From positions 1 to 64,000 of IMG/VR virus record IMGVR_UViG_3300020445_000892: a stretch of DNA of 64,000 bases. The stretch is one strand, 5' to 3'. The stretch is from a virus. This document shows positions 4,840 to 58,238 of the stretch, piece after piece. Within the stretch, counting starts at the first letter, position 1, and each line of letters begins with the position of its first letter. A program made the position numbers and the translations under genes. A model generated the notes under the pieces. That model was not told where the DNA came from, made no database searches, and worked only from the letters and a program-made list of their open reading frames with translations.

Positions 4840-5379
4840 ATGTCAGTCTTAAATGTATTAGATACTCAGACAGTGAGTGGTTCAGGAACTGCATACATTG
4901 TGGTCAAGTCTGGTGTAGTTCGTGCTTACGCTGCATCTGCATCTTCAATACAATTCGATGCTGGTCCTGCTGTAACTCTCGCTGCTGGAGAAGCAATTCT
5001 CCTCTCCGTTGGAAAGTCAAAGAACGTATCAATAACTGGTGCTTCAGATGCTGCTACCTGTGTATTCACAGTTGGTGGTGTAGGTGCTGGTCAACGTCAT
5101 AACTTTGCAGTAGGAGATTACATTCAAACTATAGATGGTGGTGACACCGATGGATTTGTTGCAGCATTTGAAACTGCTGCTTCTGCTGGAAAGAAAGTCA
5201 CTGCTGTTACAAACACCACAGTAACAACTGATTACGATTCATCTTCTGCTTCTGCAGCATATGCAATCAGTGAAGCAGATGTTATTGCAAACAACGTTCC
5301 TCAACTTCAAAGAACAGTGAAACTCACTGCAGGATCTGCTGATGTTGTAGTTGAGCAAGTACAAATTGTTGGTGGCTAA
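4840..5379 (+). CDS. Beta-rich putative virion protein
   Basis: A 179-residue Ala/Val/Ser/Thr-rich protein without membrane segments or catalytic motifs that I recognise. Its composition (AYIVVKSGVVRAYAASASS, then alternating hydrophobic strands) resembles decoration or adhesin-like beta proteins. It has its own late-type promoter at 4807 and an AAGGA ribosome site 10 bases before the ATG. The stop overlaps the next ATG. A structural role is inferred from promoter type and composition only. Confidence 0.6.
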   Translation: MSVLNVLDTQTVSGSGTAYIVVKSGVVRAYAASASSIQFDAGPAVTLAAGEAILLSVGKSKNVSITGASDAATCVFTVGGVGAGQRHNFAVGDYIQTIDGGDTDGFVAAFETAASAGKKVTAVTNTTVTTDYDSSSASAAYAISEADVIANNVPQLQRTVKLTAGSADVVVEQVQIVGG

Positions 5380-6035
5380 TGGAAACTACTGGTCAAACCG
5401 ATCCTGTATTAAAGAAGAAAAAGCAGTTGTTAGATAAGAAGCAACTACAGTTAAATCTTCGTAAGATACAACTTCAACGCAAAACAGTTCAAGCTGGAGG
5501 TGAAACCGATATGCGTACAGAGAAACGTGTAATGTCCTTTAAGCAGTTCATAGCTGAAGGTGGATTGGCACGTGCTATCAGTAAATCTAATACAAAGGTT
5601 ACTGGACACATCAGTGCTGACAGGGGTTCTGACGAAAAGAAGAACCGTGAGAAACGTAAAGGATTAGAGAAAGACCTTAAGAAGAAGGGTATTGGATATA
5701 AGAAGGGAGTGGGACAGTACAAGTATGACGATGGGAAAACTGGCACAGAGGTGTCCTACCATACGTCAAAACCTGATAAAATGTCTAAGCGACGCTTTGG
5801 TAAGCTAAGTCGTAGGCTCGGTCGTAAACACGGTCAAGAGTCTGTTATTACAAAAGATAAAGACAAATCTGCCAAATTACATTATACTGATAAGAGTGGT
5901 AAGAAATCCGAGTCTCTCGGTAAGACAAAAGCTGGTAAGCATCCTGGTGGATATGGTGAAACATCTTCTACCAACGTGCGATCTGGTAAACTACCCAAAA
6001 AGGTCAAAGACCAAAAACTACACTATGACAAATAA
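5379..6035 (+). CDS. Very basic protein with prohead-targeting-like motif
   Basis: The long frame gives 218 residues, rich in Lys, Arg, Gly and Ser. Residues 52-61 read MSFKQFIAEG, closely like the MKTYQEFIAEA head of T4 internal proteins IPI-IPIII, a capsid-targeting sequence cut by gp21 after (I/L)xE. Cleavage would fall after Glu60. A second start at 5511 (Met45), preceded by GGAGG at 5496-5500, would put this motif near the N-terminus; the start at 5379 overlaps the previous stop. The rest (for example KKKGIGYKKGVGQYKYDDG) is a basic, probably DNA-contacting body. I infer a head-internal protein packed with the genome. Confidence 0.65.
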   Translation: METTGQTDPVLKKKKQLLDKKQLQLNLRKIQLQRKTVQAGGETDMRTEKRVMSFKQFIAEGGLARAISKSNTKVTGHISADRGSDEKKNREKRKGLEKDLKKKGIGYKKGVGQYKYDDGKTGTEVSYHTSKPDKMSKRRFGKLSRRLGRKHGQESVITKDKDKSAKLHYTDKSGKKSESLGKTKAGKHPGGYGETSSTNVRSGKLPKKVKDQKLHYDK

Positions 6036-15509: not shown

Positions 15510-16137
15510 AGACATTCAAGTACTTGAAGAGAGTACAAAGAGTGGTAAGAAAAATCTGTATATCGAAGGCACGTTTCTCCAAGGCGAGATTAAAAATCGC
15601 AATGGAAGGATGTATCCTATGGCTACTCTCCGAAGAGAAGTTGGTAAATACAACGAAAGCTTCGTTAAGTCAGGTAGAGCACTTGGAGAACTCGGTCACC
15701 CCGAAGGTCCAACAGTTAACCTAGATAGAGTATCTCATCTAATCACATCTTTGCAAGAAGATGGAACAAACTTCAAAGGAAGAGCACGTATCCTTGAGAC
15801 CCCTATGGGTAACATTGCTAGGTCTCTTTTAGGAGAAGGAGTCAAATTAGGGGTATCCTCACGCGGGATTGGATCCCTAAGAAGGACTAGTGAAGGTGTA
15901 AATGTTGTCGCTGATGACTTTATGCTTGCCACTGCTGCTGATATTGTGGCAGATCCCAGTGCACCAGACGCTTTTGTGTCTGGAATAATGGAAGGAAAGG
16001 AGTGGGTCTGGGAGAATAATCTTCTCAAAGAACGTGAACTCCGCACAATTAAGCAAGGTTTGGACAATGCTCCAAACGCAAAAGTAATCGAAGAGATGAA
16101 AGTTTCCGCATTCGCAAAACTTATGAACTCTCTATAG
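15484..16137 (+). CDS. gp21: gp21 prohead maturation protease
   Basis: A 217-residue protein of the herpesvirus-type serine protease family. LYIEGTFLQGEIKNRNGR matches the T4 region LYIEGIFMQAEVVNRNKR. His72 in ELGHPEG and Ser125/126 in GVSSRGIGSL are the catalytic residues. It cuts scaffold, gp23 and internal proteins after (I/L)xE. This matters because several late proteins in the window carry that motif. T4 gp21 has 212 residues. Confidence 0.96.
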   Translation: MKLITEQIEDIQVLEESTKSGKKNLYIEGTFLQGEIKNRNGRMYPMATLRREVGKYNESFVKSGRALGELGHPEGPTVNLDRVSHLITSLQEDGTNFKGRARILETPMGNIARSLLGEGVKLGVSSRGIGSLRRTSEGVNVVADDFMLATAADIVADPSAPDAFVSGIMEGKEWVWENNLLKERELRTIKQGLDNAPNAKVIEEMKVSAFAKLMNSL

Positions 16138-46810: not shown

Positions 46811-47820
46811 CAACATCCTTTTTAAAAGACATTATTAAATCTATTGACAATGAGTATGCTTCAATCGCTGACGACGGACTTGCTGCTGGCGACGTATCTT
46901 CTTTTATTGATACTGGAAGTTACATTTTTAATGCTCTTGTTAGCGGTTCCATATACGGTGGTATACCTTCCAACAAAATTACTGCGTTGGCTGGTGAGTC
47001 CTCTACGGGGAAAACGTTCTTCACGATCAGTGTCATTAAACACTTCCTCAAGACACACCCAGAAGCAGGTGTAGCATTCTTTGAATCAGAAGGTGCTATC
47101 AGTAAAGATTTACTGTCTGATCGTGGTGTAGATACTAAACGTGTCGTTATCATACCTGTAGTAACAGTTCAACAGTTCAGACAACAAGCATTGATGGTAG
47201 CAGATAACCTATTGAAGGATAAGAATCATCCTCCTATGTTATTTGTACTTGACTCTCTTGGTATGTTATCAACAACAAAGGAGATTGAGGATAGTGAAGC
47301 AGGTAAAGAGACTAGAGATATGACTAGAGCACAAGTTGTTAAGTCAATCTTTAGAGTTCTTACACTTAAACTATCAAAATGTAATATTCCCTTAATAGTT
47401 ACCAACCATACATATGATGTTGTAGGTGCTTATATGCCTACGAAAGAAATGGGTGGAGGTAGTGGACTCAAGTATGCTGCATCTACTATCATCTTCCTCA
47501 GCAAATCTAAAGAGAAAGATGGTAAGGAAGTGATTGGTAACATTATTAAATGTGAAACTAAGAAGAGTAGGTTCACAAAAGAGAGTGCCAAGATTGCTAC
47601 TAGGTTATTCTATGATGAAAGGGGATTAGATCCCTACTATGGACTATTAGAATTGGGAGAAAAGTATGGAGTATTTGAGCGTAAAGGAAATCGCATCGTT
47701 GTCGGTGATAGTTCTGTATATCCTTCTGCAATGCTTAAGGATCCAGAGAAATATTTTACCACCGAAGTAATGCAAGCACTAGATGAGTGTGCCAAGAAGG
47801 AGTTCGCATATGGAACTTAG
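46807..47820 (+). CDS. uvsX: UvsX RecA-like recombinase
   Basis: A 337-residue protein with Walker A GESSTGKT at 63-70, Walker [10 protein letters not shown] and loop region [13 protein letters not shown]4 UvsX has 391 residues; the shortening is at the C-terminus. It drives strand exchange and recombination-dependent replication with UvsY and gp41. Its end overlaps the next oxygenase gene by 11 bases. Confidence 0.95.
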
Positions 47821-48382
47821 TAAGTTTGTCAAAACTTATGATGATGCCATTCCAGTTGAAGTTTGTAAACACGCTATAAAACTATTCGATCAACAAGAAG
47901 ATCTTGAAGATTGGGATAGGGAAGGGTGTCCTCAGTTTACTCAGTTTAATATCACAGAGTATCTTGACAAGAAAGAAGATCAAGAGAACCGTGGTGACTG
48001 GGATATAATTCAGTATGCTCTCATTAATTCTGCTCACGAATTCGTGAAGCAGTATATGGATGAGAATGATTGTAGGAAGTTCTTCCCTAACAGAAGTTCA
48101 TTAGAACAGTTTAGGATGAAGAAGTATCGTAAAGGTACTGATGATAGGTTTGAGAAGCACGTTGATGTTGCTGATCACCAGAGTGCTAAAAGGTTCCTGA
48201 CTATGTTCTGGTATCTGAATGATGTTGAGGAAGGTGGTGAAACTAAGTTTGATGGATTGACAATCAGTCCTAAGCAAGGTAGACTTCTTATATTCCCTCC
48301 GTTGTGGTGCTTTCCACATTCAGGGGAACCAACTATTTCTGATGACAAGTACCTAGTAGGCACCTATTCACATTATGTCTGA
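47810..48382 (+). CDS. P4H-type 2OG-Fe(II) oxygenase 6
   Basis: A 190-residue protein from ATG 47810, preceded by [26 protein letters not shown] gives the HxD motif, [15 protein letters not shown] the following strand, and CFPHSGEPT the distal His. A basic residue in [13 protein letters not shown] takes the 2-oxoglutarate role (Lys rather than Arg). It is inserted between uvsX and gp41. Substrate unknown. Confidence 0.82.
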
Positions 48383-50414: not shown

Positions 50415-50549
50415 ATGGAACAACTTGATCTTGATAGAATTGCAACTGCACTTGAAAGAATTGCAGAGAAGCTAGACCATCTTCATATAGATGCTATAGA
50501 TCACAATCACGTTGAAGGTGATGTTAACACACACGCTAAAACTTGGTAA
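50415..50549 (+). CDS. 44-residue helical protein
   Basis: ATG 50415, after GGAGA, opens MEQLDLDRIATALERIAEKL, an amphipathic helix, followed by a His-rich end (HLHIDAIDHNHVEGD). It is coupled by TAATG to the next gene. An oligomerising peptide or metal-binding adaptor is possible. Confidence 0.6.
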   Translation: MEQLDLDRIATALERIAEKLDHLHIDAIDHNHVEGDVNTHAKTW

Positions 50550-51133
50550 TGAATTACATTCATAATAACTTAGGTGCACTTGAACCCCACGAGTGCACCT
50601 TTTTAATTAACTATTTTAAGCAGAACCCAGACAAACAAGTCGAAGGTCTTCTAGGATTTGGTGATTCTATGAGGGTATCTCCAGATGAGAAGAAGTGTAC
50701 AGAGATATTTCTTTCATCAAATCTATTAATAGATCAGTTCATTTTTAAACCTGTTGCTAGGGTATTAAAAGAAACTTGTGAAGCATACATCAAAGAGTTT
50801 CCATTCTTAGATAAGATAGGAGCGTGGCAAATAGCACCTAACTTTAAGATTCAACATTACAAACCAGGTGAAGGATACTTTAAAGAACATTGTGAGAATG
50901 ATGGTGGAACAGATGGTGATGCTGAGTATAGAGTTGTTGCTTGGATGATATATCTAAACACTGTTACTGATGGTGGAGAGACAGTATTCCCTACACAGAA
51001 TGAACAGTTTAAACCTAACCGTGGTGATGTATTATTCTGGCCAGCATACTGGACACATCCACATCACGGAGTTGTATCCCCTTCACAAGATAAATATATC
51101 TTGACAGGTTGGTACAACTTTAGTGGCAGATAA
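50549..51133 (+). CDS. P4H-type 2OG-Fe(II) oxygenase 7
   Basis: A 194-residue protein. IQHYKPGEGYFKEHCENDGG holds the first His but Glu-x-x in the usual HxD region is shifted (H-C-E), so iron binding may use a variant. MIYLNTVTDGGETVFPTQ and WTHPHHGVVSP give the strand and distal His, and KYILTGWYNF the terminal basic site. It starts at ATG 50549. Substrate unknown. Confidence 0.78.
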   Translation: MNYIHNNLGALEPHECTFLINYFKQNPDKQVEGLLGFGDSMRVSPDEKKCTEIFLSSNLLIDQFIFKPVARVLKETCEAYIKEFPFLDKIGAWQIAPNFKIQHYKPGEGYFKEHCENDGGTDGDAEYRVVAWMIYLNTVTDGGETVFPTQNEQFKPNRGDVLFWPAYWTHPHHGVVSPSQDKYILTGWYNFSGR

Positions 51134-52115
51134 AGGAATTGATACAGACACAGCTAGAAAGAGACTCATCCTAGAGAATCCTGAGTACGATAAGCTCGAG
51201 CTGACATTATTACAAGATACTGTACTCTTTAGTCCACGGGCAAAGAAGAAGATTACCTGTACTTGTAAGAAGGGTGATCGTGTTAAACTTGTATCAAATA
51301 AGATATCTGATTGTGGTAAATCCAAATACTGTGGGAATGTAAATGTAGATGGTAAGAATGGATGGGTACAGTTAAATCATATAGTTAAACCTGATGCAAA
51401 GAATACTGATGTTATGTCAGCAGAGAAAGCTGCTATGACACAGTTAGATAAACTTCTGAAGGAGATGCTTAAGTGTAGAGGTCCAGCAACATTATGCACA
51501 CCTGTAGGTGAGTTTCCTAATGCTTGTGGTGTTAAAACAATTAAGGGTACACCTAAAGCAGACTTTGCTATAGTAGATCAGAAGGGTAAAGAGATAATGT
51601 GGATATCACATAAGAAGACAGGTGGTGCAAAAGCATTTCAACAGTATGGTGGTTTGTCTAAGACAGCAGGAAAGAAGATATCAAATCACGAAGAGACACA
51701 GAAGTTCTTACAACAGACTGCTGCATATGTGACAGATGATAAGTTACAAGTACCAACAATGAAACCAGTAAAGGATGATAATTTAATTCGTATGGCAGTA
51801 TTTGGACCTGATTCAGGTGGAAAGTTTGGTAAGAATAATTGTCACGTCTTAGGTCAAGGTAATGCACTCTTGAAAGAAGATAAGAAGAGAGAGAACTGTT
51901 GGAAGTTAACTTGGGAACATACTGTCTGGAATGATAGTACTGGTGTCAATTCATTCAAACGTGACGATGGTTATCAAGCAACGTTTGGTGCCACCTATCG
52001 TGGTGACAGAGGATTTACAGTATTAGATCAGAAATATAAGGGTGCACGTGTGGGGATTTACCCAAAAGCCTTGATGGCAGGCAGAACTAATGTTACACTA
52101 CTAGAGGACGCATAA
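51123..52115 (+). CDS. Nuclease-like protein with SH3-like N-terminal domain
   Basis: A 330-residue protein from GTG 51123. Residues about 48-90 (KGDRVKLVSNKISDCGKSKY to GKNGWVQLNHI) look like a bacterial SH3 domain, with CTCKK before it. The centre has KADFAIVD at 145-152 and EIMWISHKKT at 157-166, similar to the D...(E)xK core of PD-(D/E)xK endonucleases though the acidic residue is Ser/His here. The rest is Gly/Lys-rich. It ends 5 bases before the ligase-like gene. The nuclease call is tentative. Confidence 0.45.
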   Translation: MADKGIDTDTARKRLILENPEYDKLELTLLQDTVLFSPRAKKKITCTCKKGDRVKLVSNKISDCGKSKYCGNVNVDGKNGWVQLNHIVKPDAKNTDVMSAEKAAMTQLDKLLKEMLKCRGPATLCTPVGEFPNACGVKTIKGTPKADFAIVDQKGKEIMWISHKKTGGAKAFQQYGGLSKTAGKKISNHEETQKFLQQTAAYVTDDKLQVPTMKPVKDDNLIRMAVFGPDSGGKFGKNNCHVLGQGNALLKEDKKRENCWKLTWEHTVWNDSTGVNSFKRDDGYQATFGATYRGDRGFTVLDQKYKGARVGIYPKALMAGRTNVTLLEDA

Positions 52116-52119
52116 GCAT

Positions 52120-53316
52120 ATGGCTACTAAGAACACCCATCTCGAACACTTAGAAGATGACATCCTAAACCAAGGTTCCAAGGGTGGTAAGAATGCTATT
52201 GCTTTCCTGAAAGAACTAGGAAAGATGTTGACAGAACCCAAGAGTGCTATTACTGTCACTACTAAATGGGATGGAGCACCTGCTATTGTATGTGGTATCA
52301 ATCCTGAGAATGATAATTTCTTTGTGGGAACTAAATCAGTATTCAATAAGACCAATCCTAAGATCATATATGTTGAGAGTGATATAGAATTCCACGGTTA
52401 TAGTGGTGAACTAGCAAAGAAATTAAAACTAGCATTGAAATATCTAAGTACACTTAAGATTAAGGGTGTACTACAGGGTGATATGTTATTCAGTAATGGT
52501 GATAAGGTTAGGAAGCAAATAGATGGTAAGTCTTGTATTGCTTTCACACCTAATACTATTACCTATTGTGTAGAGAAAGGATCTGATATCTATAAGGAAG
52601 TTAATGCTGCAGAGTTTGGTATTGTATTCCATACAAAATACAGTGGTTCTGATATGGCATCTATGAATGCAGTATTGGGTGATGTTAGTGGGAGTTTTAC
52701 TAAGACTGCTAAGGTATTCTCAGGTACTGCTACGTTCAAGGACGTGTCAGGACAGTCAACATTCACACCAAAAGAGAAGACTGCCTTCAATGCTCAGGTC
52801 AATAAGACACACGGATCATTGAAGCAAGCATCTAAGTTCTTAGATATACTTGCTGGCACAGGTGATGGTAGGTTTTTATTCTCTGCTCTATTCAAACAGT
52901 ACTTTAACTCTTATGTAAGAACAGGTAAACCAATTACTAACGTACAAAAAGTAGCAGCAGGATTTGAAGGGTTCTATGTCACGCTATTAGATAAGCAAAT
53001 TAATTCAGTTAAACAACCTACTACTAAAAAGAAATATCAAAAGATAAAAACAGACGGACAAAAGTTTTTAAAGCAGAATGCAAGGGCAGTTTATATGACT
53101 GTGGCATCCTATATGAACCTAATATCCGCAAAAAATATAGTTATTAAGAAACTTAATGCAGTAAAGAGCGTAGGCACCTATCTCAAGACTGACAAAGGGT
53201 TTAAGGTTACTTCTCCCGAAGGATTTGTGGCAATAAAATCAGGAAAAGCACTCAAACTTGTTGACCGAGTTGAATTTTCCCGTGCCAACTTCACAATAGA
53301 GAAGAACTGGGGGTGA
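52120..53316 (+). CDS. Nucleotidyltransferase/ligase-like protein
   Basis: A 398-residue protein. TTKWDGAP at 47-54 has the KxDG motif I of ATP-dependent DNA/RNA ligases and capping enzymes, K49 being the would-be adenylated Lys. GVLQGDMLF at 116-124 fits motif III, EGFV at 367-370 motif IV, and LKLVDR at 378-383 motif V. The spacing of motifs III to IV is unusually long, with a helical insert between. The family would join nucleic-acid ends or transfer nucleotides. No known T4 ligase (gp30, gp63, Rnl2) resembles it in overall sequence as far as I can tell. Confidence 0.6.
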   Translation: MATKNTHLEHLEDDILNQGSKGGKNAIAFLKELGKMLTEPKSAITVTTKWDGAPAIVCGINPENDNFFVGTKSVFNKTNPKIIYVESDIEFHGYSGELAKKLKLALKYLSTLKIKGVLQGDMLFSNGDKVRKQIDGKSCIAFTPNTITYCVEKGSDIYKEVNAAEFGIVFHTKYSGSDMASMNAVLGDVSGSFTKTAKVFSGTATFKDVSGQSTFTPKEKTAFNAQVNKTHGSLKQASKFLDILAGTGDGRFLFSALFKQYFNSYVRTGKPITNVQKVAAGFEGFYVTLLDKQINSVKQPTTKKKYQKIKTDGQKFLKQNARAVYMTVASYMNLISAKNIVIKKLNAVKSVGTYLKTDKGFKVTSPEGFVAIKSGKALKLVDRVEFSRANFTIEKNWG

Positions 53317-53347: not shown

Positions 53348-54562
53348 ATGAAGTTAAGTCAATTCTTATCTGAGGCACGTACTGTTGCAGGTGAAGCTGC
53401 AGCTAAAAGAGGACTTGCACACGCAGGTCACGGTTACTATGCTGACAGGGCAGGGAACATTGTTGCCAAGTCTGTTGGTGGTGAGCGTCTTGTAGCTGTA
53501 GATAAGAAAGAAGCAGAGCAAGCTACTGTAGGATCAGCACAAGGTGAGGCAGAAGATGCACATCTTCCTGAGAAAGGTGGTGAAGGTCTAGGACATATCG
53601 CATTAACATTTGGTCGTTTTAATCCTCCTACTATTGGACACGAAGCACTCTTAGATAAGGTTGCATCTGAAGGTGCTGATAATTACAGGATCTATCCTAG
53701 TAGGACAGTGGATAGGAAATCTAATCCACTAGAACCAGAAACAAAGATTCAGTATATGCAATCGATGTTTAAAGAACATTCAGAAGCCATCGTTAACGAT
53801 GCTGATATGTCAAACATCTTTAACGTACTGTCTACTCTCAATCAAGAGGGTTATTCTGGTGTCACTATGGTTGTTGGTTCTGATCGTGTGTCAGAATTCA
53901 AAGGACTTCTTGAGAAATATAATGGTGTTGCATACGAATTCGAAGAACTCGAAGTAGTATCAGGTGGGCAGAGAGATCCCGATGCCGAAGGTGTTGAGGG
54001 TATGTCTGCATCTAAAATGCGTGCGTTTGCTGCTGAAGGAAACCTTGAATCATTTGAACAGGGGTTACCTAAAGGGTTTAGTGACGCTAAGAAATTAATG
54101 AAAGAAGTTCGTATTGGAATGGGTCTACCACCAGAGGTAGAAGTTGAAGCAATTGAAACTGAACCTAAGAAGAAAAAGGTTACAGAACTCTGGAAGATTG
54201 CACCTAAACTTGCTCAAGAAGATTTGCGTGAAGCATATATATCAGAGCAGGTATTCAGTATCGGTACTTTAGTAGAGCATACAGATACTGGTGTCCGTGG
54301 TGAAGTGGTACAACGTGGAACTAACTACGCTACCTTTAAAGATGAGCACGGATGGGAATTTAAAGTATGGTTAACTAGTTTAACAGAAGTTGCAGATGCT
54401 TCAATCAAAAGAGATGACCAATCAAACTTCTCTGCTGATGATGGATCAGGCAACACTTGGAAAGTCGGTACTGATGAGTATAGACAAGCAGTTCAAGCAC
54501 TAACACCTGGTCAAGGTGTAGTGAAGTTCAGTCATTTCCGAAAACAAACCCCTACTAAATAG
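53348..54562 (+). CDS. Head-targeted NMNAT-fold protein
   Basis: A 404-residue protein. The N-terminus MKLSQFLSEARTV resembles T4 prohead-targeting sequences with a gp21 site after Glu9. Residues about 83-255 are a HxGH-type nucleotidyltransferase: FGRFNPPTIGHE at 88-99 and SASKMR at 220-225. A C-terminal domain at about 305-355 (SIGTLVEHTDTGVRGEVVQR) looks like a KOW/SH3 fold. The family makes dinucleotides such as NAD, so an enzyme carried in the head is possible. It has a late promoter. Confidence 0.7.
   Translation: MKLSQFLSEARTVAGEAAAKRGLAHAGHGYYADRAGNIVAKSVGGERLVAVDKKEAEQATVGSAQGEAEDAHLPEKGGEGLGHIALTFGRFNPPTIGHEALLDKVASEGADNYRIYPSRTVDRKSNPLEPETKIQYMQSMFKEHSEAIVNDADMSNIFNVLSTLNQEGYSGVTMVVGSDRVSEFKGLLEKYNGVAYEFEELEVVSGGQRDPDAEGVEGMSASKMRAFAAEGNLESFEQGLPKGFSDAKKLMKEVRIGMGLPPEVEVEAIETEPKKKKVTELWKIAPKLAQEDLREAYISEQVFSIGTLVEHTDTGVRGEVVQRGTNYATFKDEHGWEFKVWLTSLTEVADASIKRDDQSNFSADDGSGNTWKVGTDEYRQAVQALTPGQGVVKFSHFRKQTPTK
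54554..54561 (+). promoter_or_regulatory. Late promoter-like octamer ACTAAATA
   Basis: Overlaps the preceding stop, 22 bases before the ATG at 54584. Confidence 0.6.
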
Positions 54563-54583: not shown

Positions 54584-55975
54584 ATGGATTTAACTCTTAC
54601 GTCAAAACTCCTGAAGTATAGTCCTTCAGACGTACAAGCGGTACGTTATACAGTATCTTATGCCAAGAATAACTTTCAAGGTGATGCTGTGGATGATTAT
54701 ATTCAAGAGCACTGTAAGTCACGTGCCAAGTTGGAGATAGCAGAGATCTTTTTAGGTGAGACCTCCAATGCAAACACTATTAGTGCTAAGTCAAGTGCTG
54801 CCAGTGGTAAGATTGACAAGATCAAAGAGAAGCCATCGACTGAGGGATCTACTTCCCCTGCAATGAAGTCTATTGAAGCAAAAGGCGATGCAAAGAAAGT
54901 AGGATACAAAGGTGGACTAGAAGGTACTGGTACTAATGTTGTACAGAAAGAAGAGACCGACTGGATCGCTGATGTCGTAGAAGAATTAGGTGATGAGTTC
55001 GATGAGTTGACTGATGAGGATTTGGAGAATGTTATCCTCGAAGCACTAAGCGAACTAGACTCCGAAGAATTAATTACTGAGGCTTTAGATTCCTTTGAAG
55101 ATCTAGAGTTATTAACAGAAGCACCATCAAAGCATTCAGCATTCCCTAATGTTGCAGTGCAGAAACCTCAAAAGGAAAAGCCTGCACGTGATGCTGGTGC
55201 AATTGCTAAGAAGCGTTTATCAGATAAACAGGGATCTAAACCTGCTAAGTCAGATAAACCTAGCCGTATGGCTCGTCTTGGTAATGCTGCTAAGAGAGTA
55301 GGATCAGCCGTTAAGTCTGGTGCTAAATCAGTAGCTAAAGGTGCAGTTAAAGGTGCGGGTTATGCTACTGGTTTAGCACAACGTGCGGCTTCAACTACTA
55401 AGAAAGAGTTCTCTAAAGGTAGAGAGCGTGGTCTTAAAGGTAGTGGTGCGAAGAAGGCAGTTGCTTCTTCTTCAGGATCTGGATCTTCAGGATCTGGTGA
55501 CACTCCCACTTCAAACTTAGCGAAGACTTCTTCTACAACCACAACAACCACAACAACAGGTGGTGGCGGTGGTTCTGGTGAAACAAAACCCAAGAAAAAA
55601 TCTCTATTACGTCGTGCTGCAGGTGCGATAGGTAGAGGTCTCAAAAAGGTCGTGGGTAAAACCTCACGTGCTGTTTCTAAGGGTTCCGATAAACTAGCAA
55701 GGAAACTTGGAGAAGACTCCACTATGGAAAACAAAGTACAACGTGTTCGTCAGATACTTGCGATGCAAGAAACTGCTGCTCACGATAAGAGATCACTAGA
55801 TGCTAATGCTAACTCTTGGAGAGAGCGTCTTGGTTGGGACTTAGAAGAAGAGAAGACTCCTGAGCAAAAGAAGAAGTCTGATGTTCTTAAGCAAACCAAA
55901 GATCTTACAAACAAAGGTAAGCACAAAGAAGCATCTGCTTTATTCAAAAAACATTTCCCTAACTTTGGTAAATAA
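54584..55975 (+). CDS. Histone-like head-internal protein with gp21 cleavage sites
   Basis: A 463-residue protein. An N-terminal helical domain (1-60) leads to an acidic stretch (123-179) with three matches to (I/L)xE|A: after Glu153, Glu166 and Glu179. The part that would remain is strongly basic, with Lys/Ala/Gly repeats at about 218-305 (GSAVKSGAKSVAKGAVKG), a Thr/Gly linker, and another basic region (LLRRAAGAIGRGLKKVVGKT). This resembles a histone H1 tail. A polar domain ends in FKKHFPNFGK. I infer it is processed in the prohead and binds the packaged DNA. Confidence 0.65.
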   Translation: MDLTLTSKLLKYSPSDVQAVRYTVSYAKNNFQGDAVDDYIQEHCKSRAKLEIAEIFLGETSNANTISAKSSAASGKIDKIKEKPSTEGSTSPAMKSIEAKGDAKKVGYKGGLEGTGTNVVQKEETDWIADVVEELGDEFDELTDEDLENVILEALSELDSEELITEALDSFEDLELLTEAPSKHSAFPNVAVQKPQKEKPARDAGAIAKKRLSDKQGSKPAKSDKPSRMARLGNAAKRVGSAVKSGAKSVAKGAVKGAGYATGLAQRAASTTKKEFSKGRERGLKGSGAKKAVASSSGSGSSGSGDTPTSNLAKTSSTTTTTTTTGGGGGSGETKPKKKSLLRRAAGAIGRGLKKVVGKTSRAVSKGSDKLARKLGEDSTMENKVQRVRQILAMQETAAHDKRSLDANANSWRERLGWDLEEEKTPEQKKKSDVLKQTKDLTNKGKHKEASALFKKHFPNFGK

Positions 55976-55977
55976 CT

Positions 55978-56430
55978 ATGGCTAAAAAGGTGAAGGGTAA
56001 AAAAACCACCGTAATTGTTAACCCCAAAAAGGACGATCTAATGAAAGAGGACATCAAAAGATTACTTCGTAGTGAAGTTGATAGTTTGCGTGAAGCAGCT
56101 AAGAAGAAGCTCGATCCTGTAGGGAAGGAAGACAAGGACATCGATAACGATGGTGACAAGGACAACTCTGACACATATCTTCTAAACAAAAGGAAGAAGA
56201 TAACTAAAAGTGTCACAGGTAAAACACCCAAGCACCTTTGTGCTAAGTATGTCGAACATAAAGAGTTCGGTGTATGCGAGACCATTCCTGGTGCTCACGA
56301 TCTAGTGGAGCAAGAGGATGGATCTTATAAAGTATTTCATTATGACCTCAAGGATGAGTCAGGTAACCTTTATGAGGACGTATCTATTGAGGACTTCGAA
56401 GTACTAGTAGAGATGGAGCACGCTCACTAA
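55978..56430 (+). CDS. Protein with EF-hand-like calcium loop
   Basis: A 150-residue protein. Residues about 50-70 read DKDIDNDGDKDNSDTY, a D-x-D-x-D-G-D pattern like EF-hand or dockerin calcium loops. Before it is a basic segment, after it a domain with two Cys (LCAKYVEH, GVCETIP) and an acidic end. It is coupled to its neighbours with overlaps of 1-3 bases. It is probably a minor structural protein of the same late unit. Confidence 0.6.
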   Translation: MAKKVKGKKTTVIVNPKKDDLMKEDIKRLLRSEVDSLREAAKKKLDPVGKEDKDIDNDGDKDNSDTYLLNKRKKITKSVTGKTPKHLCAKYVEHKEFGVCETIPGAHDLVEQEDGSYKVFHYDLKDESGNLYEDVSIEDFEVLVEMEHAH

Positions 56431-58238
56431 TGAAAAGTTTTAAATCCTTTAATGAAGCTGTTGCTAACAAGAAGCAAGCTGATGCTATAGCACAAGCAAA
56501 GTTAGATCGTAAGTCTGCACTTAAAGTTAAGTCTGTTAAGTACAGAAAAGAGAACACTCAGGTTGGTGACCCTAACTCTAGTGCACCTGAACAGAATTTC
56601 TCTGAAGCTAAGGTAGATGCTGGTAAATCTCCTGAAACAAAAGAGAAGGATAGGAACGTACGTAAGTTTGGTGTAAGCCATAACGTATCAGGTCACGGTA
56701 AACTAAGAAGATCTCTTCATAGGATGAACCGTGGAGATAAAAAGATACCTGGTGATAAGTCTAAATGGATGGAGATGGAAGGGAAGGATTACGGTATCAC
56801 TAGGGGAGATGGTAAACCAAAGGGTGTTATGAAAGCATACCTTGATGCCAAAGCAAAGAAATTAAGTAAAGAAAAGGCAGCACAAAAGCCTGAGTATAGA
56901 AACAACCCTGCATTTGGTGATCCATCACATCATTCAAACAGAAAGAACATTAAAGAATTTGTAGGAACAACTATAGCTGGAACTGCTGGAGCAGCGACTG
57001 CAAAGAAAGGTGATAAGGTTCGTAAGGCAGTTGGTTCTGGTGCAGGATATGCAGTAGGTTCCACAGCTGGTCGTGCAGCTGGTGGTGCAGTTGGTCAAGC
57101 AGTAGGTAGAGCAACGGTTCCTATTGTTGGTGGTGCAGTTGGTAAACAGGTAGGTAAAGTAATTGGTGGTACTGCAGGCGGTGTAGCAGGTGCTGTTGCA
57201 GGTAACAAGTTAGCTGGTACATCAAAGAAGAAGGTAAAGGAAGAGGTAGAATTAACTGAAGCTCCTGGAGTTAGTACAGCTATATCTCAAGGTATTAAAC
57301 AAGGTGGTAAGTGGGCTGTTCGTCAAGGTATCAGAGCTGGTGGTAAACAAGGTGGTTACGCTGTAAAGAAAGCAGGTAAATATGCAGGACAAGCTGCTAA
57401 AGAAACTGCTGTTGAATATGGTAAAGGAGCACTTAAAGGTGCTAAAGATAGAGCTGGTAAAGCAGGTGAACGTCACGCAAAGAATTTAAGTTTGCCACAA
57501 AGAAAGCAACTGGAGCAACAGACAGAAGGTCTTGCTACTGCAGGTGGATTAACTTATAAAAAGTCTGAAAAACCAGGTAAATTTGAAAAAGCAGGTAGAG
57601 TTGTAGGTGGAATTGGTGGAAGTATAGGTGGAAGTATAGGTGGTGCTGCAGCTGCAGGTGCTGCAGGTAGTGTCGTACCTGTTGCAGGTACTGCTGCAGG
57701 TGGAATAGCAGGAGGAATTGCAGGAGGAGTTGCTGGTGATATAGCTGGCACAAGAACTGGTGGTTCTATAGGTCAAAAAATTGATAAATTAACAGGTGGA
57801 AACAAGAAACCAGTTGCTAAGAAGACTACTGCAGTTACTAAAGAGTCTAAAGACATTGCAGATATACTTGCAAGACTAGAGAAGAAACGTATCAGTAAGG
57901 GTGGAGACGCAAAGGACTCACCACTACCTGCGTTCCGTAAGTATCACGCTGACAAAGATAAGAAGAAGAAAGAAGTAAAAGAAGATGTGATAGGTGAAGA
58001 AGGTTACGATCACTGGAGAGACAAACAACTTGAGAAGTATGGTACTGGGTGGAGATCTAATGACAGACCTAGACCATCATCAGGTGGTGGAAAGCACAGT
58101 GGTAACGATAAGATGACCAAGAAGAAGAACTCTGACAAGGCATTGGACAGTGTAGTAAGTGACCTCAAGAAAAAATATGGGGACAAAGCTGTGCTAGTAT
58201 CAAAGAGAAAGTACAGAGGAGGCAAGAGAGTACAATGA
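56430..58238 (+). CDS. Glycine-zipper protein with prohead-type sites
   Basis: A 602-residue protein. MKSFKSFNEAVAN resembles a prohead-targeting sequence. Residues about 177-262 and 388-440 are two Gly/Ala-rich zipper regions (GYAVGSTAGRAAGGAVGQAVG; GGIGGSIGGSIGGAAAAG) able to insert in membranes. Between them lies ELTEAPG (274-280), the same LTE|A site as gp23, with cleavage after Glu277. The C-terminus is basic and polar. Zipper regions are seen in ejected phage proteins, so an injected channel protein is my inference. Confidence 0.6.
   Translation: MKSFKSFNEAVANKKQADAIAQAKLDRKSALKVKSVKYRKENTQVGDPNSSAPEQNFSEAKVDAGKSPETKEKDRNVRKFGVSHNVSGHGKLRRSLHRMNRGDKKIPGDKSKWMEMEGKDYGITRGDGKPKGVMKAYLDAKAKKLSKEKAAQKPEYRNNPAFGDPSHHSNRKNIKEFVGTTIAGTAGAATAKKGDKVRKAVGSGAGYAVGSTAGRAAGGAVGQAVGRATVPIVGGAVGKQVGKVIGGTAGGVAGAVAGNKLAGTSKKKVKEEVELTEAPGVSTAISQGIKQGGKWAVRQGIRAGGKQGGYAVKKAGKYAGQAAKETAVEYGKGALKGAKDRAGKAGERHAKNLSLPQRKQLEQQTEGLATAGGLTYKKSEKPGKFEKAGRVVGGIGGSIGGSIGGAAAAGAAGSVVPVAGTAAGGIAGGIAGGVAGDIAGTRTGGSIGQKIDKLTGGNKKPVAKKTTAVTKESKDIADILARLEKKRISKGGDAKDSPLPAFRKYHADKDKKKKEVKEDVIGEEGYDHWRDKQLEKYGTGWRSNDRPRPSSGGGKHSGNDKMTKKKNSDKALDSVVSDLKKKYGDKAVLVSKRKYRGGKRVQ

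Follow-up and report, generated by a model that had tools for sequence, protein, structure and literature searches.

A candidate restriction-type endonuclease and a ligase-like DUF6267 protein encoded side by side in a marine T4-like phage

Results

A nuclease-like and a ligase-like gene in a phage replication cluster

We analyzed a 64,000-nucleotide stretch of DNA (hereafter the window), positions 1 to 64,000 of the IMG/VR record IMGVR_UViG_3300020445_000892, a 73.6 kb contig representing a T4-like fragment of a marine bacteriophage. In its replication cluster, genes for a DNA polymerase, UvsX, a 2-oxoglutarate (2OG) oxygenase, a helicase, a MazG-like protein and a second 2OG-oxygenase are followed, in this order, by a candidate nuclease (gene 1), a ligase-like protein of the DUF6267 family (gene 2) and an NMNAT-fold gene (Table 1). 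The GTG start of gene 1 shares 11 bp with the end of the upstream 2OG-Fe(II) oxygenase gene (50543-51133). An earlier interpretation made from the letters alone (the sequence-only reading) had described genes 1 and 2 as adjacent, with 4 bases between them, and as directly preceding an NMNAT-fold gene. Coordinates and spacing proved exact, with the gene 1 stop ending at 52115 and the gene 2 ATG at 52120; the third gene, beginning 31 bases past gene 2, matched CTP_transf_like (E 1e-5). The pair is part of a widespread, unnamed phage module and is not unique to the window.

Table 1 Positions of the gene pair, its predicted domains and motifs, and associated features in the window.
Feature	Positions	Strand	Basis
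Gene 1, SH3 plus Type II restriction endonuclease (REase)-like nuclease candidate, 330 aa, GTG start	51123..52115	+	Open reading frame (ORF) calls, model, PADLOC
SH3-like domain, residues ~22-93	51186..51401	+	AF2 model, structural alignments
Predicted PD-(D/E)xK-type nuclease domain, residues 94-314	51402..52064	+	MspI / HinP1I structural alignment
Candidate active site D147...S162-H163-K164, Ser in place of second acid	51561..51614	+	Homologue conservation
Gene 2, DUF6267 (PF19782), ligase-like covalent nucleotidyltransferase candidate, 398 aa	52120..53316	+	Pfam, model, VIA alignment
Motif I, K49-W-D-G, candidate adenylylated lysine	52264..52275	+	KxDGxP conservation
Motif III-like Q119-G-D121	52474..52482	+	Invariant in 31-row alignment
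Helical insert before motif IV, residues ~217-346	52768..53157	+	DSSP of AF2 model
Motif IV, E367-G-F-V	53218..53229	+	EGxV conservation
Motif V-like K379-L-V-D-R383	53254..53268	+	K379, R383 invariant in 31-row alignment
Linked NMNAT-fold (CTP_transf_like) gene	53348..54562	+	Pfam E 1e-5; 3' of DUF6267 in most loci
Capsid-targeting-like N-terminus MKLSQFLSEA of NMNAT-fold protein	53348..53377	+	Loose pattern; cf. T4 IPII/IPIII
Prohead protease (Peptidase_S77, gp21 family), would process such peptides	15544..15990	+	E 2e-36, window record

Gene 2 is a DUF6267 protein with nucleotidyltransferase-like motifs

Gene 2 encodes a full-length member of DUF6267 (E 4e-124, 415 bits against a curated cut-off of 27, profile positions 1-376 of 376), also recorded as PHROG 455 / T4-GC 71. 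This Pfam family has no assigned function and is mentioned in no paper of the literature searched. It was found in 465 of 50,697 phage records. Synechococcus and Prochlorococcus phages make up most of these, and a small number come from Pelagibacter, Methylophilales, Stenotrophomonas and others.

The sequence-only reading had likened gene 2 to covalent nucleotidyltransferases and pointed to K49, E367 and K379; these residues are conserved in the family. KxDGxP and EGxV, the motifs of K49 and E367, are present in 128 of 128 distinct DUF6267 relatives, and the motif III-like pattern in 124. In an alignment (A1) of 31 relatives with 39-78% identity to the window protein, the invariant residues are K49, W50, D51, G52, A53, P54, K72, Q119-G-D121, E367-G368, K379 and R383; over the wider set, the motif V-like element takes the form K(L/I/F)V(D/N/K)R. 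The long insert noted in the same reading is absent from short cyanophage members (~300 aa; S-RIM2, P-SSM2, Syn10, ACG-2014; <30% identity), and since these keep the motifs without it, the insert appears dispensable to the DUF6267 fold.

In the AF2 model of DUF6267 (pLDDT 82, pTM 0.65), strands carry the motifs, and the insert forms a helical bundle. In a second look with VIA, all 50 of the 50 best entries were DNA or RNA ligases (best Z 6.5), headed by Naegleria RNA ligase, an archaeal DNA ligase, T4 Rnl2 and T4 Rnl1, with DNA and RNA ligase structures tied in Z. A search of viral predicted structures gave an RNA ligase as its first named match beyond the DUF6267 family (E 4.5e-3). A Pfam scan of family members returned DUF6267 only, except for one member with an E of 0.03 to RNA_lig_T4_1. 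Foldseek rows for carbonic anhydrase and CorA, with root-mean-square deviations of ~18-22, were set aside as noise, and capping enzymes appeared in insignificant rows only.

DUF6267 has KxDG, EGxV and a motif V-like lysine in the order seen in the covalent nucleotidyltransferase superfamily (Rnl1/Rnl2, ATP DNA ligases, LigA), with which its predicted fold can be aligned at a modest Z. It differs in its ~130-residue helical insert and in having no OB domain after motif V. Several further results weigh against a ligase assignment. Motif III carries Asp for Glu, and motif V a single Lys in place of the usual KxK. Profile homology to the known ligases is absent: hhalign of the 31- and 128-row DUF6267 profiles against Rnl1, Rnl2-like (a set of ten sequences, T4 Rnl2 not counted), gp30 and LigA scored no higher than an unrelated control, with probabilities below 2%, and by these profiles DUF6267 is assignable to none of the four families. 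Foldseek against the PDB gave no significant match, and a best Z of 6.5 falls in the range of the tool for models without a clear relative. The ligase reading is based on the uniform list of ligases and the presence of the motifs, not on this Z alone. On these grounds DUF6267 looks, and probably works, like a ligase-type covalent nucleotidyltransferase.

Gene 1 resembles Type II restriction endonucleases

The AF2 model of gene 1 (pLDDT 92) contains an SH3 domain, aligning with many SH3 domains, followed by a second domain that can be aligned with MspI (1sa3, Z 7.6 over 174 residues) and HinP1I (Z 6.8 for 2fkc, 6.7 for 1ynm), with the D...xK hairpin in common. This agrees with the SH3-like domain and PD-(D/E)xK-like core proposed from the letters; both predicted folds of the pair are thus of the kind foreseen, nuclease-like and ligase-like. 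In MspI and HinP1I, both PD-(D/E)xK restriction enzymes, Asn or Gln takes the place of the second acid. Gene 1 differs from them in having Ser at this position, an N-terminal SH3 domain and no Pfam family match. D147, S162 and K164 are invariant in two alignments of homologues (A2 and A3), and the pattern K-x-D..S-x-K..QQ(Y/W) occurs in 71 of 71 distinct homologues.

A Type II REase model of PADLOC (PDLC03459) matched window gene 1 with an E of 3e-12 and also matched all 31 aligned homologues (best E 2e-21). Residues 142-251 match REase_II models, a likeness to the CviJI-type and nicking endonucleases of chloroviruses, and the S-CAM7 homologue carries a CviJI annotation. Weak matches to DUF4073 and queE were dismissed; for both genes, an NCBIfam scan returned nothing credible and profile searches of PDB sequences returned chance matches only. 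We read gene 1 as a probable DNA endonuclease akin to Type II restriction enzymes.

In S-RIM2, ACG-2014d and Syn10, the slot 5' of the short DUF6267 gene holds other large proteins with a P-x-D...V-S-L-K pattern (L212:2159-3427; L216:2038-3435; L215:2200-3930). These have no family match; that they may be another nuclease type is only a lead, drawn from the pattern.

The pair is linked to an NMNAT-fold gene and the nuclease varies as an allele

Linkage was assessed at 76 nuclease loci from IMG/VR, many of them near-duplicates, so that the counts are not independent. The nuclease, DUF6267 and NMNAT genes lie within ~5 kb of one another at 54 loci, and the nuclease and DUF6267 genes at 8 more, giving linkage of the pair at 62 of 76. 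At four linked loci the nuclease is divergent from the DUF6267-NMNAT pair; proximity thus survives rearrangement. At most loci NMNAT lies downstream of DUF6267, and the re-sequenced S-PM2 record encodes a single 591-aa DUF6267-NMNAT fusion protein. Of the two S-PM2 records (L093 and L310), the original has a frameshift that splits DUF6267 from the cytidyltransferase in what is one gene on re-sequencing. The DUF6267-NMNAT fusion of metaG-MbCM1 was not counted, since it retains an internal start, MKKFSAFLSEA, and could stem from a frameshift in the assembly. The annotation of certain NMNAT or DUF6267-NMNAT genes as ribonucleotide reductase (NrdB) is probably an error.

DUF6267 lies elsewhere in the genome in S-CREM2, P-SSM2, S-CAM7, S-T4 and S-SCSM2R. 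The cut-and-seal pair suggested by the sequence-only reading is supported by the linkage at 62 loci and weakened by S-T4, S-CAM7 and S-SCSM2R, in which the nuclease and DUF6267 genes are apart. For the NAD link that it considered conceivable, the case is circumstantial and consists of the conserved NMNAT adjacency and the S-PM2 fusion. The earlier observation was therefore confirmed and its interpretation partly supported.

The window was also compared with three contigs (L003, L004 and L005). The flanking DNA is mostly 97-100% identical, and the nuclease gene has 61-87% nucleotide identity with sharp borders, lowest over the SH3 part and highest near the active site. This pattern suggests that one allele of the nuclease gene has been swapped for another while the flanks stayed nearly the same.

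DUF6267 occurs in marine T4-like phages that match none of four ligase models

A 2010 review reported that no homologues of the gene 30 ligase, denA, denB or ndd had been found in cyanomyoviruses, leaving unrecognised distant ligase homologues as possible but less probable, and an undescribed route of host-DNA degradation as possible (PMC2984593). Four ligase models (PF01068, PF09414, PF09511 and PF01653) were run on 11 complete marine T4-like genomes, the window record, DLP_6 and T4. None matched in the 11 marine genomes or the window record. The matches were confined to T4, apart from one of PF01068 in DLP_6. DUF6267 was present in all 11 marine genomes, the window record and DLP_6, and absent from T4.

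Many relatives of DUF6267 and NMNAT carry capsid-targeting-like N-termini

T4 internal proteins carry a 10-residue N-terminal targeting peptide, in which residues 4 and 7 serve targeting and residues 8 and 10 cleavage by gp21 after L/I-x-E (PMC9026906). The N-terminus of T4 IPII and IPIII, MKTYQEFIAEA, has this form. A strict pattern derived from the T4 rule was applied, with internal methionines and with other genes (150 residues or more) as background. Among DUF6267 proteins, 33 of 84 distinct N-termini matched it (such as MYSFKQYLSE|SKNTH, MKSYKQFLVE|ASGKN and MHTFKQFLAE|NKNTH), as did 33 of 77 NMNAT N-termini, 13 of 790 other genes and 7 of 9,291 internal methionines, an enrichment with Fisher p values of ~1e-26 and ~1e-27 in which independence is overstated because the rows are related. 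On the DUF6267 tree the peptide is strongly clustered, with ~10 changes needed, and the cyanophage clades, including the window, are without it. In the window, neither DUF6267 (MATKNTHLEH) nor the nuclease (MADKGIDT) has such an N-terminus. Among nuclease homologues, 2 of 37 distinct N-termini carry it, at two loci. A gp21-type protease was found in 13 of 13 records tested, including that of the window.

Published mass spectrometry detected the NMNAT-fold protein in virions of S-SM1 (T4-GC190), S-SZBM1, S-CREM2 and S-SCSM1. For S-SZBM1 and S-CREM2, whose sequences were read, NMNAT has the peptide, and DUF6267 is without it and is not listed as detected. Peptide presence and virion detection thus agree in the few cases available. 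Relative to the T4 internal proteins, the pattern is shared and the phages encode a gp21-type protease; the difference is that the cargo would be a ligase- or NMNAT-type enzyme and that packaging of DUF6267 is a prediction made from sequences.

Other neighbours in relatives of the locus also bear the peptide, including adenylate kinases, AAA_33/Zeta-type kinases and a HAD phosphatase. An adenylate kinase with such an N-terminus lies directly 3' of DUF6267 at L101:1239-1826 and L103:6191-6769. Two peptide-bearing proteins (L048:1841-4951 and L112:6203-7483) fuse an AAA_33/Zeta-type kinase to a CTP_transf-like domain, the former with a Pol-beta-like domain in addition.

Elsewhere in the window, an internal ATG of the ORF at 5379-6035 gives the capsid-targeting-like N-terminus MSFKQFIAEGG, and a second 2OG-oxygenase-like gene, besides that at 50543-51133, lies at 47783-48382. 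The NMNAT gene is followed at 54584-58238 by three repetitive proteins, charged or Gly/Ala-rich, the third beginning MKSFKSFNEAV; in S-SZBM1, a protein in the same slot (_139) is present in virions.

Discussion

The explanation that we favor, with about an even chance of being right as a whole, is that a restriction-type endonuclease and a divergent ligase-type nucleotidyltransferase form a pair acting early in infection, with packaged delivery in many lineages. We infer its enzymatic activities, substrates and timing; what was computed here are the motifs and predicted folds, the linkage, the lack of matches to four ligase families, the enrichment of the peptide and the presence of the prohead protease. 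In this pathway, DUF6267 would be nucleotidylated on K49 with AMP from ATP or NAD+, and would pass the AMP to a 5'-phosphate, sealing a break in DNA or RNA. Marine T4-like phages without gene 30 would in this way have a ligase of their own. Early in infection, the nuclease would cut the DNA of the host (or of a competitor), replacing denA/denB functions, and would be exchanged as alleles. In many non-cyanophage lineages, the DUF6267 peptide would direct packaging into the head and delivery with the genome. The NMNAT-fold partner would likewise be packaged in many lineages through its T4-type peptide and may supply NAD+. In cyanophages, including the window, DUF6267 without a peptide would act after expression. 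Chloroviruses offer a parallel in that they package their restriction enzymes, whose presumed role is the breakdown of host DNA (PMC7019647); the present system differs in its bacterial host and in the scarcity of the peptide on the nuclease.

Beyond the features that set DUF6267 apart from known ligases, other observations sit uneasily with this explanation. No phage ligase is strictly needed, since the host ligase can stand in for the phage ligase in T4 (PMC2984593). DLP_6 encodes a gp30-type ligase as well as DUF6267, so that DUF6267 may do something else and is not everywhere a simple replacement for gp30. The gene list in the S-CREM2 paper includes a ligase, although none of the four models finds one there. 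DUF6267 is separated from NMNAT in S-CREM2, P-SSM2 and others, and in S-SZBM1 virions NMNAT was detected, whereas DUF6267 and its upstream gene were not.

The strongest rival, to which we assign perhaps one chance in four, is that DUF6267 is an RNA-repair ligase that, together with the P-loop kinases, the HAD phosphatase and the Pol-beta-type nucleotidyltransferases that relatives encode nearby, would heal and seal tRNAs cut by host defences, comparable to T4 Pnkp and Rnl1. RNA ligases (Naegleria ligase, T4 Rnl2, T4 Rnl1) are among the top structural matches, among the peptide-bearing neighbours are adenylate and AAA_33/Zeta-type kinases as well as a HAD phosphatase and a Pol-beta-like domain, and jumbo phages carry RNA-repair sets (PMC7824862). 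However, DUF6267 is accompanied most steadily by a nuclease of the DNA-restriction type and by an NMNAT-fold protein rather than by a polynucleotide kinase; the window gene lies within a DNA replication cluster, and the Z scores of DNA and RNA ligases are tied.

Similarly plausible, and likewise well short of the favored explanation, is a role for the nuclease as a weapon, either for inter-phage exclusion or restriction-like, and for DUF6267 in mending collateral breaks in the phage's own DNA. Such a weapon would fit the exchange of alleles of 61-87% identity inside flanks of 97-100% identity, the match of all homologues to the Type II REase model, and the occupation of this slot in other cyanophages by different proteins with a D..SxK pattern. 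However, the allele exchange would also be explained by escape from a host inhibitor, and in chloroviruses the packaged restriction enzymes did not account for exclusion (PMC7019647).

We consider it rather unlikely that DUF6267 nucleotidylates a host protein, an RNA 5' end or a small molecule, with its NMNAT partner engaged in an NAD-linked host takeover in the way that T4 Alt uses NAD. The adjacency to NMNAT, the S-PM2 fusion and the lack of profile homology to polynucleotide ligases are consistent with a target of this kind, and packaged delivery would suit host takeover. Against it, polynucleotide ligases are closest in structure, Foldseek lists capping enzymes in insignificant rows only, and a restriction-type nuclease as linked partner suggests DNA.

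An elaboration of the favored pair that we regard as improbable is a self-contained cut-and-seal kit, in which an NAD+-dependent DUF6267 ligase would be injected with the nuclease, and NMNAT, helped in some relatives by an adenylate kinase or P-loop kinase, would regenerate NAD+ from the released nicotinamide mononucleotide. Least probable is that DUF6267 has no activity and serves in the head as a structural or scaffold-associated protein with a retained ligase-like fold, which the capsid-targeting-like peptide of many lineages would fit, but which is at odds with the catalytic-type residues kept across highly diverged members and with the cyanophage members that have no peptide and were unseen in S-SZBM1 virions.

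What is new here is the presence of ligase-like DUF6267, a family of no assigned function, in 11 complete marine T4-like genomes that match none of the four ligase models, the finding of capsid-targeting-like N-termini in many of its relatives, and the apparent swap of nuclease alleles. The pair offers testable candidates for two missing functions of these phages, the sealing of Okazaki fragments without gene 30 and the degradation of host DNA without denA, denB or ndd. If the capsid-targeting reading is true, ligase-type and NMNAT-fold enzymes would be packed by the route of the T4 internal proteins, the range of injected cargo represented by Alt and the internal proteins would extend to nucleic-acid sealing, and N-termini would give simple rules for predicting virion cargo.

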